From a virus: a stretch of 21,879 bases of DNA. Shown here in pieces: positions 3,134 to 13,654 of the stretch (positions within the stretch are counted from its first letter, which is position 1; each line of letters opens with the position of its first letter). The notes beneath the pieces are model-generated. The model worked only from the letters and a program-made list of their open reading frames with translations, made no database searches and had not been told where the DNA came from. The stretch is from the IMG/VR virus record IMGVR_UViG_3300034956_000309, positions 1 to 21,879 of that record; one strand, 5' to 3'. The position numbers and the translations under genes are program-made.

Positions 3134-3544
3134 TTAGTTCATAGTTTCAACAAAGTCACTAGCTGAAGCGTTTATGTCAATGTTTGGAATGATTGACTGA
3201 GGCTTCCAGATAATTCGGTTGTGGTACACACTGACGTTTACGTTTTCAAGCTGTTCAGCAAAATACGTTACGTTGTGAGATAGGCCTAGAAAATGCTTCT
3301 TAAACTGTCCAGGACCAGTCTTGCAGGTTACCTCTAACTGAGTTTTTTGGTCAGTGATAGAGCACTTGCCTTCCATCTGAAGCATGTAATCACCTGTGAT
3401 GCCATTGTAAAACACAATGTTACGCTGGATTTCAAACATATCAGCAGCTTTAGACAAGTTGTGTGATGCAGTTGTGGCATCAGACTGACAGCCTGTTATG
3501 GCGATGGATGCTACTAATGGTACTAACAGTAGTAATTTGTTCAT
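3134..3544 (-). CDS. Phage beta-sandwich-type lipoprotein
   Basis: A 136-residue protein with a lipoprotein signal: basic MNK, hydrophobic LLLLVPLVASIA, then lipobox ITGC with the modified cysteine at residue 19. Residue +2 is Gln, so outer-membrane sorting is expected. The mature part (NLSKAADMFEIQRNIVFYNG at about 29-48, HFLGLSHNVTYF at 84-95, WKPQSIIP at 113-120) matches, from memory, a conserved phage family annotated as beta-sandwich lipoprotein, whose role is not settled. Cysteines 61 and 74 could form a disulphide. AAAGGT precedes the ATG. A role in changing the infected cell surface, such as superinfection exclusion, is inference from location signals only. Confidence 0.85.
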   Translation of the reverse strand: MNKLLLLVPLVASIAITGCQSDATTASHNLSKAADMFEIQRNIVFYNGITGDYMLQMEGKCSITDQKTQLEVTCKTGPGQFKKHFLGLSHNVTYFAEQLENVNVSVYHNRIIWKPQSIIPNIDINASASDFVETMN

Positions 3545-3582: not shown

Positions 3583-3906
3583 TTAGTCAGCCAAGGAAGA
3601 TAGCAATTCGTTATCCGATGCAGTATCTGCAAATGACTGAGAACGGCCCCACTGATAACGCTCTTCAGCAGACATTGCTGAGAATGCGAACATATCGTTG
3701 ACATACCACTCTTGACCAGCTGCTAATGAGCTGACAGGTTTACCGGTAAGGATTGATTTGGCTTCGGCTAACTCGATAATCTTGGCATCAAGTTGGTCTT
3801 GGGTCATATCTGCAGTGATATTGTGCAGTGTGACTTGATTTTTACGTTGGATAGCCTCTTTATAGGCTGCAGAGCGCATCTCTGGTGTGTCTGACATAAT
3901 ACTCAT
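3583..3906 (-). CDS. Hypothetical protein (107 aa)
   Basis: A soluble, acidic, helical protein beginning MSIMSDTPEMRSAAYKEAIQ. AAGGAAGAG lies just before the first ATG; a second ATG four codons in (MSDTPEM) is a possible alternative start. Mid-protein it has TADMTQDQLDAKIIELAEAK (about residues 31-50), which looks like a helix-loop-helix, and it ends in Ser/Asp-rich residues. No family is recognised. It is the first gene after the structured spacer that follows the RNA polymerase gene. Confidence 0.75.
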   Translation of the reverse strand: MSIMSDTPEMRSAAYKEAIQRKNQVTLHNITADMTQDQLDAKIIELAEAKSILTGKPVSSLAAGQEWYVNDMFAFSAMSAEERYQWGRSQSFADTASDNELLSSLAD

Positions 3907-4119: not shown

Positions 4120-6126
4120 CTACGGAAGCAAGAACAGATTGCTTTCTTCAATACGATCTTCAGCTTCACCGTAAACGATCTCAGGTGCCACAGCAGGTAC
4201 ATGAGAATGTACTGCAATCTCATTGAGTATGTCACTCAACAGATCACTAGCTAACAGCTCCTTGAACACTTCCTTAGCAGTAGCCATAAGTAATGGATAG
4301 CTAGACGGGTGAATGTAGAAGTTGTCGTGCTTGACCAAGATAGGCATGCCGGTAGCACGAATAGCTTGTACCATCCTACGTAGTACATAGGCATCTACGC
4401 TGTGAAGTATGTCAGCAAATAGTCCTCTAAGATGAGTTTTCACCTTATGAGTAGTCTTGCCTATAAGCATTTCCTTAGCGTACAAAGGCTTGCCAGTACG
4501 AGTAGTCTCGTAAGGCAGGTCAGTCAACTCAATAGTATGAGCATAACCAGACTTGTGACTAGCACTAGCTACGTAGTTCTCAACAGCTACACCACTTTGG
4601 TAAGCCTTATGAGAAGCAATCATGCCATCAGGCATAGTCCAGCGCATAGTAGAATACTCACTATGAGCAATAGTAGCTCCCCACTGTGCGATAGCATCAA
4701 TGTTGACTACGGACTCACCATATACACGTACAAGACTGCTATGAACCTCATCTTCAGTCATATCATAACCATGCTCAGTTATAGTATTAACCAAGCCAGA
4801 TATATGACCACCGTGCATCACAGGTTGCTGCATAGATTTAACAGTGTCCCTGTCTAGCTGAATACCGAATAGCTCACCGAACCTAGCGTGTGCATCAGTA
4901 ATGACATCACTGCCGTACAGGTTACCAGACTGTAGAAACTCAGGACTCTTAAACAACAGTCCAGCCATAATGCCTCCACTGAATGTGAAGTCCCAGCCAA
5001 ACAAGTTGCCACAGTCCTCACCAGCCTGTAGATGCTCAATAGACTCAAGAGCCTTCTTAACTACCCAAAGATTAGCCATTTCCTTCTGACTGGTAGATGC
5101 AAGCACTACGTCCTCAGTAACAGGGGTAAAGTGGTGGTTCTTGATAACTGCAGAAGCCTCAACAAGACCAACTCTGTGCTCCCTAGCAGAATAAAGCTGC
5201 TGTACGAGAACACTTAGACTGCCTTCACCTAAGTTGTGCTTATCAGCAGAACAATGCTGGATAGTCTCAAAGGTTTTACCATGAGCATTGATACCCTCCA
5301 GCCTATTGCCTTCAGGACCAACACGTAAACGATGGTCATACTTAAACGCTAAGTAGTAGATGCAGTCTTGCAACTCCATTACTTCAACAGCCATATCTTT
5401 ATAGTGCTTACGCTTAAACGCGCCCACCCACTTAATCTTGTTACCATTCTTATCGTGTGACTTGTCCCAGTCATCTTTAAGAGTATAGAACTTATTAAGC
5501 ACTGCACTACTTAATTCAGAATGCACCATAAATGGTTGATCTGACAATAACTTCAAGAAGTCTTTCTGAGCCTTGACTGGTTTTAGACCACCAATACTCT
5601 TTTGAAGTACAACACCTGGTTCAGGCATTACACCATGCAACTTGTCCTTAAAGTTGACCTTAGTAAACGTTACATAGTGGTACTCTCTGGTACCATTAGG
5701 TGTAACAACCTTCTCCTTAGTTACAACAAGCAGACCTTCGTCAATTAAGACGTTAGTTACGATAGCCGAAGCAAGTATTGCTACACGCCTCTTCTGACCA
5801 TCAGTCTGTGTTACTTTTAGCTTACATACAGGTAGCTTATAACTAAGCATGCCCCTAAAAGTGGATACTAATACACGATCACAACTATCTGCAGTAGCAG
5901 TAATTGCGGTAACAACAGCAGCAGTACGTAGAGGTAAAAGAACCTCAAATACATGCCTGTGAACCATAGAAGTCCACTCATCCATCTGATTACGTTCTTC
6001 AAGAGCTAACCAAGCATCTCTAGTACGCAAATCACCCAAAAAGGTCAGTCCTAAGACCATCTTTAAGGTGTTATCACTGTGGTCAAGAACACTGGTTTCT
6101 TGAACTGCTGGATGTACGTTATTCAT
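4120..6126 (-). CDS. Single-subunit (T7/N4 RNAPII-type) DNA-directed RNA polymerase
   Basis: A 668-residue polymerase expected to transcribe phage genes. Motifs, with T7 equivalents in brackets: DHRLR at 264-268 followed by GNRLEG (DxxGR motif); motif A GWDFTFSGG with catalytic D379 (D537); motif B R426-xxx-K430 (R627, K631); the LHSVDAYVLR segment with H575 (H784); motif C HDNF at 600-603 with D601 (D812). At the motif B position of T7 Tyr639 there is His438, then G439. N4 encodes its RNAPII as two subunits of about 269 and 404 residues (from memory); this single chain has nearly the summed length, so it looks like a one-piece version. It is far shorter than T7 RNAP (883), lacking much of the promoter-binding N-terminus. 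AGGAG lies 7 bases before the ATG. Confidence 0.93.
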   Translation of the reverse strand: MNNVHPAVQETSVLDHSDNTLKMVLGLTFLGDLRTRDAWLALEERNQMDEWTSMVHRHVFEVLLPLRTAAVVTAITATADSCDRVLVSTFRGMLSYKLPVCKLKVTQTDGQKRRVAILASAIVTNVLIDEGLLVVTKEKVVTPNGTREYHYVTFTKVNFKDKLHGVMPEPGVVLQKSIGGLKPVKAQKDFLKLLSDQPFMVHSELSSAVLNKFYTLKDDWDKSHDKNGNKIKWVGAFKRKHYKDMAVEVMELQDCIYYLAFKYDHRLRVGPEGNRLEGINAHGKTFETIQHCSADKHNLGEGSLSVLVQQLYSAREHRVGLVEASAVIKNHHFTPVTEDVVLASTSQKEMANLWVVKKALESIEHLQAGEDCGNLFGWDFTFSGGIMAGLLFKSPEFLQSGNLYGSDVITDAHARFGELFGIQLDRDTVKSMQQPVMHGGHISGLVNTITEHGYDMTEDEVHSSLVRVYGESVVNIDAIAQWGATIAHSEYSTMRWTMPDGMIASHKAYQSGVAVENYVASASHKSGYAHTIELTDLPYETTRTGKPLYAKEMLIGKTTHKVKTHLRGLFADILHSVDAYVLRRMVQAIRATGMPILVKHDNFYIHPSSYPLLMATAKEVFKELLASDLLSDILNEIAVHSHVPAVAPEIVYGEAEDRIEESNLFLLP

Positions 6127-8072: not shown

Positions 8073-8148
8073 CTTGGTATAGCTGAGTTTGGTTTAGCAC
8101 TGCGTTTGGGGCGCAGAGACAGGGGTTCAAATCCTCTTACCGAGACCA
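8073..8148 (+). tRNA. tRNA-Pro (UGG)
   Basis: Cloverleaf drawn by hand: acceptor CTTGGTA/TACCGAG, anticodon stem CTGCG/CGCAG with loop TTTGGGG (anticodon TGG), T arm AGGGG-TTCAAAT-CCTCT, and encoded CCA. G37 fits a proline tRNA. Confidence 0.92.
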
Positions 8149-8155
8149 CTATTTC

Positions 8156-8240
8156 GCCTGTATGATGGAACTGGTATACATGACGGTCTTAGAAACCGTT
8201 GCCGCAAGGCGTGTAGGTTCGACTCCTACTGCAGGCACCA
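8156..8240 (+). tRNA. tRNA-Leu (UAG)
   Basis: Acceptor GCCTGTA/TGCAGGC, anticodon stem ACGGT/ACCGT with loop CTTAGAA (anticodon TAG, reads CUA), long variable arm (GCCGCAAGGC), T loop TTCGACT, and encoded CCA. The long variable arm is as expected for leucine. Confidence 0.92.
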
Positions 8241-8246
8241 TATTTA

Positions 8247-8332
8247 GGAAGGCTCGCATAATTAGTATTGCACCTCCTTGCTAAGGAGACATCAGAAAGG
8301 GTATGCAGGTTCGAGTCCTGCGCTTTCCGCCA
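8247..8332 (+). tRNA. tRNA-Ser (GCU)
   Basis: Acceptor GGAAGGC/GCTTTCC with one G-U pair, anticodon stem CTCC/GGAG with loop TTGCTAA (anticodon GCT, reads AGC/AGU), long variable region, T arm GCAGG-TTCGAGT-CCTGC, discriminator G and encoded CCA, all typical of serine. Confidence 0.92.
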
Positions 8333-8346
8333 TTTTTACAAGTACC

Positions 8347-8423
8347 GGGCCTTTAGCTTAGTTGGTTAAAGCAGCTGACTCATAATCGGAAGACCGTTGG
8401 TTCAAGTCCAGCAAGGCCCACCA
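8347..8423 (+). tRNA. tRNA-Met or tRNA-Ile2 (CAU)
   Basis: Acceptor GGGCCTT/AAGGCCC, anticodon loop CTCATAA (anticodon CAT), T loop TTCAAGT, and encoded CCA. The anticodon alone cannot separate elongator Met from lysidine-modified Ile(AUA). The first acceptor pair is G-C, so it is not a typical bacterial initiator. Confidence 0.9.
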
Positions 8424-8429
8424 TACATA

Positions 8430-8511
8430 GGGAAGTATGCTACAAGGTGTGGCAGCGGGTTGTAAACCCGTGGCGTAAGCACGAATGGTTCGATTCCATT
8501 ACTTCCCACCA
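8430..8511 (+). tRNA. tRNA-Tyr (GUA)
   Basis: Acceptor GGGAAGT/ACTTCCC, anticodon stem CGGG/CCCG with loop TTGTAAA (anticodon GTA), extended variable arm as in bacterial tRNA-Tyr, T arm AATGG-TTCGATT-CCATT, and encoded CCA. Confidence 0.92.
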
Positions 8512-8692: not shown

Positions 8693-9199
8693 ATGCAACA
8701 ATTTATAGGTACTAAAATAGTAAACGCTAAGCCAATGGATCGTTATGACTACGTTACTTTACGTGGTTGGGGGTTGCCGGCAGATGAAGACGGTACAGAT
8801 GAAGGGTACTTAGTTGAGTACTTAGATGGTGGTAAATCTAACGTTGAAGGTTTTTCAGGTTATGTAAGCTGGTCACCTAAAGAAGTATTCATTAACGCAT
8901 ATAGCACTTCAGGTAGTTTAACATTTGGTGATGCTCTTATAGTTCTGAAAGCAGGTGGTAAGGTTGCCCGGGCAGGTTGGAATGGTAAAGGCATGTGGCT
9001 TGTTCTAGTTCCAGGTACTCCTAATATCGTACCACGTAAGGGTAGCCCGTATAGTGATGCAGGTGTAACTGAAGAAGTTGAGATCCTTAGCCACATTGAC
9101 ATGTACACAGTTAACTCTGCTGGGCGTAGAGCAATGCTACCGGGTTGGCTAGCTAGTCAGACAGACATGCTGTCCTCCGATTGGTGTATCGTAGACTAA
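8693..9199 (+). CDS. Tad2/DUF2829-domain protein (candidate Thoeris anti-defence)
   Basis: A 168-residue, two-domain protein. Residues 1-73 form a domain often fused to this family (NAKPMDRYDYVTLRGW at 11-26, EGYLVEYLDGGKSNVEGFSG at 37-56, SWSPKEVF at 59-66). Residues 75-168 form a DUF2829/Tad2 domain: LTFGDAL at 76-82, KVARAGWNGKGMWL at 90-103, HIDMYT at 134-139, and PGWLASQTDMLSSDW at 150-164. Tad2 proteins are known to sequester the signalling molecule of the Thoeris defence system; that this one does so is inference from the domain. It has its own upstream promoter. Many phages carry the family, so the call is firm for the domain and moderate for the function. Confidence 0.9.
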   Translation: MQQFIGTKIVNAKPMDRYDYVTLRGWGLPADEDGTDEGYLVEYLDGGKSNVEGFSGYVSWSPKEVFINAYSTSGSLTFGDALIVLKAGGKVARAGWNGKGMWLVLVPGTPNIVPRKGSPYSDAGVTEEVEILSHIDMYTVNSAGRRAMLPGWLASQTDMLSSDWCIVD

Positions 9200-9682: not shown

Positions 9683-10486
9683 ATGGCATTACCAGCAACA
9701 GCAGAACGTGCAATAGACGCAAGATTAGACATAAAAGTGCTACAGGCACAATTGTCTGCCAAACAAAAGAACATGATTACCGATGACACGGTAGCTGAGC
9801 TGACCAAGTTAGCTAACGATCCTGACTACGGTGAGGAGTTCCTTGACGTTTACCGGGATCACCTGAATATCCTGGGTTCTAACAGCAAATATACGACAAA
9901 TGGCTACATGTCTGCAGTGAAATTCTTCTCACTGACAGAAGCCGGCAACAACATTACTGATTCGTACATCATTGTGTTTCCTGAACGACTTAAGTCACGT
10001 ACAGATCGTGGACAATCTAAGGCAGACATTCGTGGTGAAGCTTCACGGTACAATAGTACTGCATTAGTTAACGAGATCCGTAAAGTTGCAAGCATTCCTA
10101 TTCAGCTTATCCACCGGCACTTACTGCATGAGGCCATATTAGAACAAGCAGACTTAATGCGTAATGCTCGTTCTGAGATGGTACGTCAGAAAGCTGGTGA
10201 GGTTCTGATAAAAGAACTTAAGCCTACAGAAGATAACGTATTAAGTATCAGAGTTGAAGATGGTGCCAAGTCTGCTATTGCCTCTCTACAGGAAGCAACT
10301 GAGAAACTTATTATTAAGGAACAGCAGAGCATTCAAGCCGGTGTTTCTATCACAAGTATTATCGAAGCTAAGATTGTACAACCAGAACAGGATGCTGATG
10401 AAACTGCTTATGATGCAGAATTTGAAGAGATTGTTGACGTGGTACCTGAAGAAGAACCTAAGTCTGACGCAAAGTGGGAGTTTTAA
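9683..10486 (+). CDS. Probable terminase small subunit
   Basis: A 267-residue protein directly upstream of the large terminase, its stop TAA sharing a base with the terminase ATG (TAATG). The N-terminal third is helical and could bind DNA. Residues about 123-180 (YNSTALVNEIRKVASIPIQL, then HRHLLHEAILEQADLMRNAR and AGEVLIKELK) resemble the helical core of small terminase-like proteins of podoviruses. The C-terminus is very acidic (from about 234: EQDADETAYDAEFEEIVDVV), which small terminases often use to contact the large subunit. In N4 the equivalent position is held by gp69, whose role I cannot confirm from memory. The call rests mainly on context. Confidence 0.6.
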   Translation: MALPATAERAIDARLDIKVLQAQLSAKQKNMITDDTVAELTKLANDPDYGEEFLDVYRDHLNILGSNSKYTTNGYMSAVKFFSLTEAGNNITDSYIIVFPERLKSRTDRGQSKADIRGEASRYNSTALVNEIRKVASIPIQLIHRHLLHEAILEQADLMRNARSEMVRQKAGEVLIKELKPTEDNVLSIRVEDGAKSAIASLQEATEKLIIKEQQSIQAGVSITSIIEAKIVQPEQDADETAYDAEFEEIVDVVPEEEPKSDAKWEF

Positions 10487-12108
10487 TGGCAACTGCAGAA
10501 GCTGTAGAAGAACTTGAACAAGCCACTGTTGACTTTGAGAAGCTGCTGAACCTAATTGATTACACCCGGTTTGACTCTGGTTATGTGCCTAGTAGATTCG
10601 CCTTAAAGTTCATAGCGTTTATCAAACTAGTTAACGGATCTATGGGTGAAGAGAACACCTCTCCTCTGTTCCACTATGACATGTTAGATACGCTCACAGA
10701 ATCAAGGCAGAACCTGTTTGTTTGCTTCCGTGGAGGCGCTAAGACTTCCGTGATACACGAATACATGTTTCTGTATATCGCCGTATACGGGCAGGTAGAC
10801 GGGTTTGGTGAGGTTGATGTTGCCATGTACGTAGCTGACACAATAGACAACGGTATCAAGTCTATGAGGCAGAACTTACAGTACAGGTGGGATCACTCAC
10901 CATTTATGCAAAAGTATGTCCCTTATACTAAATTTATTGATTCTGAGTGGGAGTTCCAAAACGCTGACGGTAAGATGTTCTTCGTCAAAGGGTTTGGTGC
11001 TAATACCGGTGTACGTGGATTTAAAAAGTATGGTCAACGTCCCACTTGGTTGGGCTTAGATGACCTTATGTCGGACAAGAACGCTGAGTCTGCAACGATT
11101 GTAGAGGACATAAAGAAAGTTCTGTACCGTGCAGCACGTCAGTGTCTACATCCTAAAAAGCGTATGATTAACTGGACAGGTACACCGTTTAATAAACAAG
11201 ACCCTCTGTATGAAGCAGCAGAATCAAAGTCCTGGAACACCAAGATCTACCCTCTGTGTGAGAAGTTCCCATGTACCGAGGAAGAATTTAAAGGTGCTTG
11301 GGAAAACCGGTTCCCTTATACGTTCGTTAAACATGAGTACGAAAGTTTGAAAGAGAGTGGTGAGTTAGCTGCATTTGACCAGGAGTTAATGCTACGTATA
11401 ACGAGTGATGAAGATCGCTTAGTTAATGATGACGACTTGGTGTGGTACAGCCGTAAAGACGTTCTGAAGAACAAAGGCAGCTACAACTGGTATATCACTA
11501 CTGACTTCGCAACTACAGACGGTGCTAAGTCTGACTACAGCGTAATATCTGTATGGGCATACAACAACAATGGAGACTGGTTATTGGTAGACGGTATGAT
11601 AGGCCAACAGCTTATGGACAAGACATTGGCAGACTTATTCAAGTATGTGTCCATGTACAAGCCGTTAGAAGTTGGTGTAGAAGCTAGTGGGCAACAAGGT
11701 GGATTCATAGCTTGGATTAAAGCTGAGATGATAAAGAAGAACGTATTCTTTAACCTGGCTAAAGGACACGACAGTAAAAAAGAAGGTATCGTACCCAAGT
11801 CAAAGAAAATTGCACGATTCATGCAGTTCATGCCTATAATATCTGCTAAGAAGCTACTACTTCCTGAAGAGATGAAAAGCTCTAAGTATATGGTAGAATT
11901 GCTGGAAGAGCTTAGGTTTGTTACTAAGAAAGGATTCAAGTCAAAGCATGATGACGTAGCTGATACTCTATCTATGTTGACTGAACTTAGCCCGTTTGCT
12001 CCTAGTGAAGAAACAACAACAGAATATGTGCAGAACGAAGAAGGAACTTTTGCAACATTTCCTGATGATGACGAGCTGGATAGCGGGTATAATAGTACAG
12101 TATTTTAG
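10486..12108 (+). CDS. terL: Terminase large subunit (N4 gp68-like)
   Basis: A 540-residue packaging motor ATPase and nuclease. The start is placed at the ATG at 10486 (MATAEAVEELEQ), with GTGGGAG upstream, rather than a GTG four codons earlier. ATPase domain: Walker A-like FRGGAKTS at 81-88, Walker B WLGLDDL at 188-194, coupling motif WTGTP at 230-234. Nuclease domain of RNase H fold: D340 in ITTDFATT, E399 in GVEASG and D490 in HDDVAD as the acidic triad. Blocks such as GANTGVRGFKKYGQRP (171-186), ESATIVEDIKKVLYRA and FPCTEEEF match my memory of N4-like terminases better than T7 gp19. It would cut and fill concatemeric DNA together with the upstream small subunit. Confidence 0.93.
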   Translation: MATAEAVEELEQATVDFEKLLNLIDYTRFDSGYVPSRFALKFIAFIKLVNGSMGEENTSPLFHYDMLDTLTESRQNLFVCFRGGAKTSVIHEYMFLYIAVYGQVDGFGEVDVAMYVADTIDNGIKSMRQNLQYRWDHSPFMQKYVPYTKFIDSEWEFQNADGKMFFVKGFGANTGVRGFKKYGQRPTWLGLDDLMSDKNAESATIVEDIKKVLYRAARQCLHPKKRMINWTGTPFNKQDPLYEAAESKSWNTKIYPLCEKFPCTEEEFKGAWENRFPYTFVKHEYESLKESGELAAFDQELMLRITSDEDRLVNDDDLVWYSRKDVLKNKGSYNWYITTDFATTDGAKSDYSVISVWAYNNNGDWLLVDGMIGQQLMDKTLADLFKYVSMYKPLEVGVEASGQQGGFIAWIKAEMIKKNVFFNLAKGHDSKKEGIVPKSKKIARFMQFMPIISAKKLLLPEEMKSSKYMVELLEELRFVTKKGFKSKHDDVADTLSMLTELSPFAPSEETTTEYVQNEEGTFATFPDDDELDSGYNSTVF

Positions 12109-12149: not shown

Positions 12150-12767
12150 ATGCTAGTAAGCGAAATTATAAACTTAGCGAGTAGCTCAGAGCTTAGGCAG
12201 TTATCTGTCAGGACTGATACAAATGCAGTTATCGGGTTTATAAACCTCGGTATGCTAGAACTCCATAAGCGTTTTACCTTAAAAGCTGAAGAAGCTATTA
12301 TTACCTTACAAGACGGTAAGACTCTTTACACTTTAGATGGTACTGATACAGACGTGAGTATCACAAATCCAGATAACTTCCTTATCGCTATAGAGTGTTA
12401 CGATGAGTCTGGTAAGCTAGTTCCTGTTAACGACGAAAGAAATCTATTAGGTATAATGACCCCTAGTTATAATACAATTGAAGTCATTAACGTCACAGAT
12501 GGTGCAAAGCTTAGCGTTATATACAGATCGTCAGTGCCATTTTCTACAGCAGTAACAGACAACGTAGCGTTACCACCACAACTTTTGGAATCTCTACTAC
12601 ACTACATAGGTTATAGGGGTAACACCACTGTATCTGCTGATATTAAGGCAGAAAACAACACACACTACATGAGGTTTGACCAAAGTTGTCAACGAGTAAT
12701 AGACCAAGGTTTAGTGCTTTCTGACGATATGGAATCTTACAAATTTGACCAAAGAGGTTTTGTCTGA
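12150..12767 (+). CDS. Head-tail adaptor/connector-like protein
   Basis: A 205-residue protein beginning MLVSEIINLASSSELRQLSV, followed by DTNAVIGFINLGMLELHKRF (about 23-42) and EEAIITLQDGKTLYTL (about 47-62). This pattern of a helix start, an asparagine-rich helix with many small repeats, then a beta strand ending in LYTL is typical of gp6-like or DUF6682-type adaptor proteins that bridge portal and tail in short-tailed phages. The position just after the large terminase fits N4 gp67. AAAGG lies about 9 bases before the ATG. The stop overlaps the next start (TGATG). The assignment is from pattern memory and context; a tail-tube role remains possible. Confidence 0.6.
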   Translation: MLVSEIINLASSSELRQLSVRTDTNAVIGFINLGMLELHKRFTLKAEEAIITLQDGKTLYTLDGTDTDVSITNPDNFLIAIECYDESGKLVPVNDERNLLGIMTPSYNTIEVINVTDGAKLSVIYRSSVPFSTAVTDNVALPPQLLESLLHYIGYRGNTTVSADIKAENNTHYMRFDQSCQRVIDQGLVLSDDMESYKFDQRGFV

Positions 12768-13654
12768 TGGTTAGAAAAGCCAGTTCGCTAGTATCAAATA
12801 CGTTAGCTGTAGACAGAGAGCTAAGTACAGTTAGTTACGATACTGTAAAAATTGTAGCTGATAAAATTACACAGATTACTAACTTAGAATCTCAGTTAAG
12901 TACAGTAGCTTCACAACTTGCAACAATAAATTCAAACCTGGCTCAAATGAACCAGGATACTATAGATACTGCAGCTGATGTAGTACTTACCCATGCTGAC
13001 GTGGTTCTTGCAGAGGCAGATAAAGTACAGACAGCATTAGATCGTATCGCAGTAGCTGCTGATCTAGTGTTAACAAATGCTGATGTAGTATCAGCAGAAG
13101 CTGACAAGGTACAAACTGGATTAGACAGGGTAGCAACCAATGCAGACGTAGTTCTTACACACGCTGACGTTGTACTGGCTGAAGAAGATAAGGTTCAAAC
13201 TGGACTTGACAGAGCTGCCACTAACGCTGACGTTGTACTCACCCATGCGGATGTAGTACTTGCCGAAGCCGATAAAGTTCAAACGGGCTTAGACCGAATT
13301 GCGACCGCAGCAGACGTAGTTCTAACTCATGCCGATGTAGTCCTTGCAGAAGCAGACAAAGTTCAGACAGGTCTGGATCGAATCGCTACAGCAGCCGATG
13401 TCGTGTCTTCCGCAAGTAACGCCTCCACAGCCACCACAAAAGCATCGGAAGCATCCACCTCTGCCAGTAACGCTGCTTCTACTCTGGCCAGTGCGTTAGT
13501 CAAAACCAACAACCTATCTGACCTAACTAACGCAGCAACGGCTCGGACAAACTTAGGTGTAGACGCAGCAGGCACAGTTGGTACCCACAATCATAATACT
13601 TTATACGACCCCATTGGCGCATCTGTCGCTATGGCAATCGCTCTTGGAGGTTAA
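12767..13654 (+). CDS. Tail-fibre protein with five 28-residue coiled repeats
   Basis: A 295-residue fibre-like protein. Residues 1-69 are helical and probably attach to the virion (NLESQLSTVASQLATINSNL). Residues 70-209 are five tandem 28-residue units of the form ADVVLTHADVVLAEADKVQT followed by GLDRIATA; the hydrophobic spacing suggests a long trimeric coiled coil or beta-helical stalk. The C-terminal part (about 215-295) is Ala/Ser/Thr-rich and carries the tail-fibre phrases LVKTNNLSDLTNAATARTNL and GTVGTHNHNTLYDP, common in phage fibres. Translation is coupled to the adaptor gene by TGATG. The shadow frames on the minus strand of the repeats are not genes. Confidence 0.88.
   Translation: MVRKASSLVSNTLAVDRELSTVSYDTVKIVADKITQITNLESQLSTVASQLATINSNLAQMNQDTIDTAADVVLTHADVVLAEADKVQTALDRIAVAADLVLTNADVVSAEADKVQTGLDRVATNADVVLTHADVVLAEEDKVQTGLDRAATNADVVLTHADVVLAEADKVQTGLDRIATAADVVLTHADVVLAEADKVQTGLDRIATAADVVSSASNASTATTKASEASTSASNAASTLASALVKTNNLSDLTNAATARTNLGVDAAGTVGTHNHNTLYDPIGASVAMAIALGG
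12974..13393 (+). repeat. Five 84-bp tandem units encoding 28-residue repeats
   Basis: The units start at 12974, 13058, 13142, 13226 and 13310. The protein copies are nearly identical in the last three units, while the codons differ at many synonymous positions (for example ACCCATGC, ACACACGC and ACTCATGC for the same THA residues). Confidence 0.9.

Follow-up and report, generated by a model that had tools for sequence, protein, structure and literature searches.

The question raised by this locus is whether the RNA polymerase II (RNAPII) of N4-like phages, which in N4 consists of gp15 and gp16, can also be made as one chain, and what a His at the site of T7 Tyr639 may mean for such an enzyme. 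According to a 2015 review, phages with a virion RNA polymerase (vRNAP) also carry a heterodimeric RNAPII, with two exceptions in which the gp16-like gene is split in two, and it was called unclear how the two-chain enzyme arose and what advantage it brings (PMC4496689). The window analysed here comes from IMG/VR and is a virus fragment 21,879 bases long. On its minus strand, positions 4120–6126 encode a 668-residue protein that is assigned as a putative single-chain N4 RNAPII-like DNA-dependent RNA polymerase from its open reading frame, its matches to PHROG 2051 and 414, its place in a phylogenetic tree and its homologues. These homologues are found in the Alteromonas phages vB_AmeP_PT11-V19 (V19) and R22Y and in two other uncultured IMG/VR lineages, G001 (3300022841_000015) and G003 (3300028844_003317, a 28-kb fragment). 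Our sequence comparisons make it very probable that this is the gene for the middle-phase RNA polymerase, the RNAPII equivalent, of an N4-like phage, with one chain covering gp15 and gp16 and a T7-type active site in which His replaces Tyr. This reading best explains the homology and collinearity with gp15 and gp16, the five members with His, the absence of gp15, the vRNAP in relatives, the N4-type genes, the synteny, the purifying selection and the retention of the catalytic residues.

The polymerase open reading frame is taken as a real gene because its dN/dS is approximately 0.14 against G001 and 0.24 against G003, which indicates purifying selection. Its start, an ATG at 6126, follows TTAGGAGTAGTAT, a ribosome-binding site of the AGGAG type. 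The best family for the protein is PHROG 2051 (N4 RNAP2, the N4 gp16 family; E=1.5e-11), PHROG 414 was matched at E=1.4e-8, and the Pfam RNA_pol match (E=8e-4) is below the family cutoff. No T7-type relative turned up when the PDB was searched by sequence, and AlphaFold2 with alignments of only two and three sequences gave pLDDT values of 32 and 36, too low for the cupped right-hand fold of T7-type RNAPs to be read from the models. In comparisons of whole-length profiles, the single-chain proteins matched the split gp15+gp16 enzymes at 2.1e-34 and T7-like enzymes at 6.9e-14; identity between single-chain and split RNAPII in the profile alignment is approximately 14%, a distant similarity. Judged from the sequences, family membership has moderate support from the single protein and strong support at the profile level. 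Downstream of the polymerase lies a small conserved gene (3583–3906, minus strand; 77%, 61% and 34% identity by blastp) that occupies the same place in G001, G003 and V19. The minus-strand gene at 3134–3544 encodes 136 residues that match Pfam Phage_VG64 at 3.4e-51 and PHROG 478, 'recombination directionality factor', at 3.2e-50; despite these matches, the protein has a lipoprotein-like start (lipobox ITGC) and occurs in an N4-like phage.

The single-chain profile was compared by hhalign with the split gp15+gp16 profiles and with T7-like profiles, re-aligned independently of the joint alignment. The N-terminal half (approximately aa 1–295; 5242–6126, minus strand), which would be the equivalent of N4 gp15, matched the gp15 profile at E=1.5e-6 compared with 0.022 for the T7 N-terminal profile. 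The C-terminal half (approximately aa 296–668; 4123–5241, minus strand), the likely equivalent of N4 gp16 with palm, fingers and motifs A, B and C, matched the gp16 profile at E=1.2e-19 compared with 3.8e-9 for T7. Crosswise comparisons of each half with the other profile were negative (0.68 and 0.29). No separate gene of the gp15 family was found in the five single-chain records, and the family was detected in four of four split controls. V19, R22Y and G001 each have one non-virion RNAP of this type, with no second gp16-like gene found. The proposal of a single-chain N4 RNAPII-like polymerase, made in a first-pass annotation of the sequence, is therefore upheld by the match of the two halves, the absence of the gp15 family and the lack of a second gp16 in near-complete relatives. 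That annotation gave approximately 269 and 404 residues for the N4 chains, in agreement with the N4 record (gp15, 269 aa; gp16, 404 aa). Its caveat, that most N4-like phages might already have a single chain, did not hold, as all ten other N4-like genomes examined (N4, A5, PA26, D519, D270, V12, Nahantvirus, CB4, EcP1 and ImVa-1) have two separate RNAPII genes, the gp15-like gene of Nahantvirus, annotated as hypothetical, being assigned here from its place and alignment. Because there is one open reading frame and no gp15 family in the five records, the protein is classed as a one-chain relative, akin in sequence to gp15 and gp16, and not as a strict, heterodimeric N4 RNAPII. By analogy, this relative probably works like N4 RNAPII.

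It is unlikely that the gene is an ordinary T7-type single-subunit RNAP from an autographivirus-like phage, with no special kinship to N4 RNAPII. The one-chain form is T7-like, and so is the absence of the long insertion that N4 gp16 carries before motif C, but the RNAPII of A5 is likewise without this insertion. The order of single-chain, split and T7-like enzymes is not resolved once vRNAPs are added to the tree; however, the split N4-type profiles fit better in both halves as well as overall, and PHROG 2051, the N4 gp16 family, ranks first for the window protein. T7 RNA polymerase resembles the window protein in being a single chain with equivalents of R627, K631, D537, D812, H784 and G542, and differs in its length (883 aa), larger N-terminal region, Tyr639, Gln544, Ile810 and much weaker profile match. 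N4 RNAPII has collinear halves, the same catalytic motifs and the same proposed role beside a virion RNAP (PMC4496689), and differs in its two chains, the Tyr at the Y639 site and the insertion. N4 RNAPII transcribes the middle genes together with gp2, an ssDNA-binding cofactor. The gp2 family was not found in the lineage, but it was equally missed in the split controls A5, PA26 and D519 and is thus uninformative.

Motifs A, B and C and the HSxD segment had been placed in one 668-residue chain, which the open reading frame and the profile alignment confirm, on the minus strand. Motif A is F376GWDFTFSG384 (4975–5001), in which D379 corresponds to T7 D537 and G384 to T7 G542. Motif B, the O-helix, is R426DTVKSMQQPVMHGG440 (4807–4851), the HSxD segment is H575SVD578 (4393–4404), with H575 equivalent to T7 H784, and motif C is K599HDNF603 (4318–4332), with D601 equivalent to T7 D812 and K599 in place of Ile or Val. 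By hhalign, R426, K430 and H438 pair with T7 R627, K631 and Y639 with zero gaps inside motif B, so the first-pass residue calls were right, and no Tyr that could replace H438 was found in or beside the O-helix in sequence and profile alignments. The protein thus contains the features of a T7-type RNAP, namely the three motifs, the two catalytic Asp residues (D379 and D601) and the O-helix Arg and Lys (R426 and K430), together with the Gly (G384) and His (H575) of the RNAP type and not the Glu of DNA polymerases. The element described earlier as DxxGR-like, D264HRLR268 (5323–5337), is correctly located, D264 pairing with T7 D421 of DWRGR, but it reads DxxLR in the window, G001 and G003, and the two isolates, V19 and R22Y, have SxxGR there. 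This motif is loose, since D519 (DTRIR) and KP34 (DWRYR) are also without the Gly.

His occupies the Y639 site in five of five known single-chain proteins (the window, G001, G003/L042, V19 and R22Y), and the motif B alignment among the closest homologues, as well as sequence and profile alignment, supports the first-pass call at this site. Tyr was found in nine of nine split N4-type RNAPIIs, six of six autographivirus RNAPs, the RNAP of Vibrio phage CHOED and three of three vRNAPs; this conservation rests on 19 aligned proteins and one review statement, not on a census. Two of these three vRNAPs come from V19 and G001, which belong to the single-chain lineage. Highly conserved as the Tyr is, it was not used to decide membership of the T7-type RNAPs. 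G003 is not independent support for the conservation of His, because the motif-B DNA pattern scan of IMG/VR by which it was found demanded the His codon; the other four members were found without that demand. Scans of IMG/VR with single-sequence or V19-only patterns gave no match, and 37 matches of the motif-B DNA pattern in prokaryote genomes were discarded, none being a relative by profile search. The one-chain RNA polymerase of CHOED (L013:3657–6849) has Tyr at motif B; its annotation links two pieces that a predicted intron separates.

The change from Tyr to His at the end of the O-helix goes together with other changes across the clade: T7 G538 is replaced by the bulky Phe (Leu in G003), Q544 of motif A by Ile, S641 by Gly and Ile/Val810 of motif C by Lys. 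The equivalents of T7 G542 and of H784, the His that senses the 2'-OH, are kept across the clade. A review names Y639, H784 and G542 as the ribose-selecting residues of T7 RNAP, and Tyr639 has been engineered so that the enzyme accepts modified sugars (PMC11617373). Judging from T7 structures, H438 would pack next to the insertion site, where the O-helix ends. There it may stack and form hydrogen bonds in place of Tyr, and the retained Gly and His would carry the selection of ribonucleotides. Loss of rNTP selection is unlikely because these two other ribose-selecting residues are kept. The best reading is that the protein is a functional single-chain RNAPII with a remodelled nucleotide pocket that would still be ribonucleotide-selective. 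The first-pass annotation suggested unusual nucleotide selectivity; the replacement may affect dNTP discrimination, and altered fidelity or translocation of the polymerase is possible. That the protein is instead degenerate or repurposed, with a structural, primase-like or regulatory role and no active transcription, is very unlikely. Its strong divergence and weak Pfam score would fit decay, as would the alteration of otherwise conserved active-site positions (Y639H, Q544I, bulky G538, I810K), but the catalytic residues are all kept in five lineages, the gene is under purifying selection and no other RNAPII was found in V19, R22Y and G001. The active-site changes look like adaptation rather than decay, because they are common to the whole clade.

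The terminase large subunit of the window (10474–12108, plus strand) is of the N4 type (PHROG 38, E=8.9e-79) and ties the contig to N4-like phages (Schitoviridae). It matched 467 phage records at a coverage of at least 80%, with approximately 60% identity to V19 and 44–54% to mainstream N4-like phages. The window, G001, G003 and V19 have the genes near the polymerase and the terminase in the same order. The capsid and portal of V19 and G001 belong to the same PHROGs as those of N4, and G001 also has a DNA polymerase PHROG match. G001 and G003 are close to the window in polymerase identity (62% and 58%), with the same His and gene order. The RNA polymerase of V19 (WAK44711) and its R22Y homologue resemble that of the window in their one chain of approximately 670 aa, the His, a KHD motif C and the place of the gene, and differ in identity (approximately 32%) and in the SxxGR element; the two phages have a vRNAP of approximately 2,083 aa. 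Beyond position 131,739 of a 198,785-base contig, IMGVR_UViG_3300022843_000001 (G002/L008), the sequence is almost exactly that of G001, and a repeat of approximately 630 bases joins this part to DNA of higher GC. The contig contains an identical polymerase, which was left out of the member count because of the collinearity with G001 and the probable chimeric nature of the assembly.

One vRNAP gene each is present in V19 (L003:32493–38741), R22Y and G001 (40953–47264), and a search of G003, a 28-kb fragment, and the list of window reading frames yielded none. Since the window contig ends before any such gene, the second polymerase of this virus is attributed to it from its relatives. The vRNAPs of the lineage have approximately 2,083–2,105 aa and are far shorter than that of N4 (3,500 aa) and those of reference N4-like phages (2,842–3,820 aa; PMC10654107). 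In the alignment, the ExDGxxxG motif is missing from the vRNAPs of V19 and G001. A published survey used this motif and dropped vRNAP candidates below 2,500 aa, so a lineage with a short vRNAP could have been missed (PMC10654107). The lineage is best read as a short-vRNAP branch of the N4-like phages. By analogy with N4 (PMC4496689), the injected virion RNA polymerase would transcribe the early genes, including that of the single-chain polymerase, and the latter would in turn serve the middle genes. In the window, G001 and V19, hairpins with a 6-bp stem and a 3-nt loop, as in promoters of the N4 vRNAP, were no more frequent than expected by chance, and no promoter-like repeat family was found among direct repeats.

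Whether the single chain is ancestral or secondary was considered from the trees. When the tree is rooted on T7-like RNAPs, the single-chain clade (100/100) falls outside all split RNAPIIs (split side 99/96 to 100/98), and it does not branch from within the T7-like RNAPs sampled. Nesting with A5 (p=0.02) or with A5+ImVa1 (p=0.04) is weakly rejected by the AU test. An unsplit ancestor is favoured on parsimony, because with the T7-like outgroup one split suffices. The tree is compatible with an ancestral unsplit origin, as far as a root placed with three groups, one outgroup and a long branch can be trusted. A secondary origin, in which the lineage descends from phages with a split RNAPII through gene re-fusion or replacement by a one-chain polymerase from elsewhere, is quite plausible, if short of probable. 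In the terminase tree rooted at its midpoint, the closest partner of the lineage is Vibrio phage D270, a split phage (100/99); rooted with distant T7-like terminases, the order of D270, the lineage and the rest is not resolved, and the single-chain RNAP branch is very long (2.2 changes per site). A secondary origin is opposed by the RNAP trees, which put every split enzyme on one side of a branch and do not nest the single-chain clade among T7-like RNAPs, by the AU tests and by the parsimony of one split. We propose only tentatively, and with some doubt, that N4 RNAPII may descend from an unsplit enzyme that survives as the single-chain His polymerase in a deep short-vRNAP branch, and that the coordinated changes of this polymerase (H438, I386, bulky 380 and K599) may be a second way, evolved in nature, for T7-type RNAPs to achieve nucleotide selection and translocation. 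In D270 (OZ195861, locus L100), the terminase is part of an open frame of 874 aa that gives two separate matches, and this place is annotated 'DarB-like antirestriction' in related Vibrio phage records.

The single-chain His polymerase is not new to sequence databases, as the V19 and R22Y records contain it. Our literature search, which covered sources other than subscription journals, found no published remark on a one-chain RNAPII or on the His. A lineage that would combine a virion polymerase with a one-chain RNAPII breaks the link described in the review and supplies a comparison for what the split does. A natural enzyme with His for Tyr639 and matching changes would be a direct test of the role of this residue, and a polymerase of this type is a possible starting enzyme for the synthesis of modified RNA.

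Several other features were observed on the plus strand of the window. Five tRNA genes (Pro, Leu, Ser, Met and Tyr) are clustered at 8073–8511. The 168-aa protein encoded at 8693–9199 has a Pfam Tad2-like domain (anti-Thoeris defence; E=7.7e-21) and is kept in G001 and G003. A tail-fibre-like protein (12767–13654) contains repeated ADVVLTHADVVLAEADKVQTGLDRIAT units, and the corresponding DNA repeats are in a 21-nt register.
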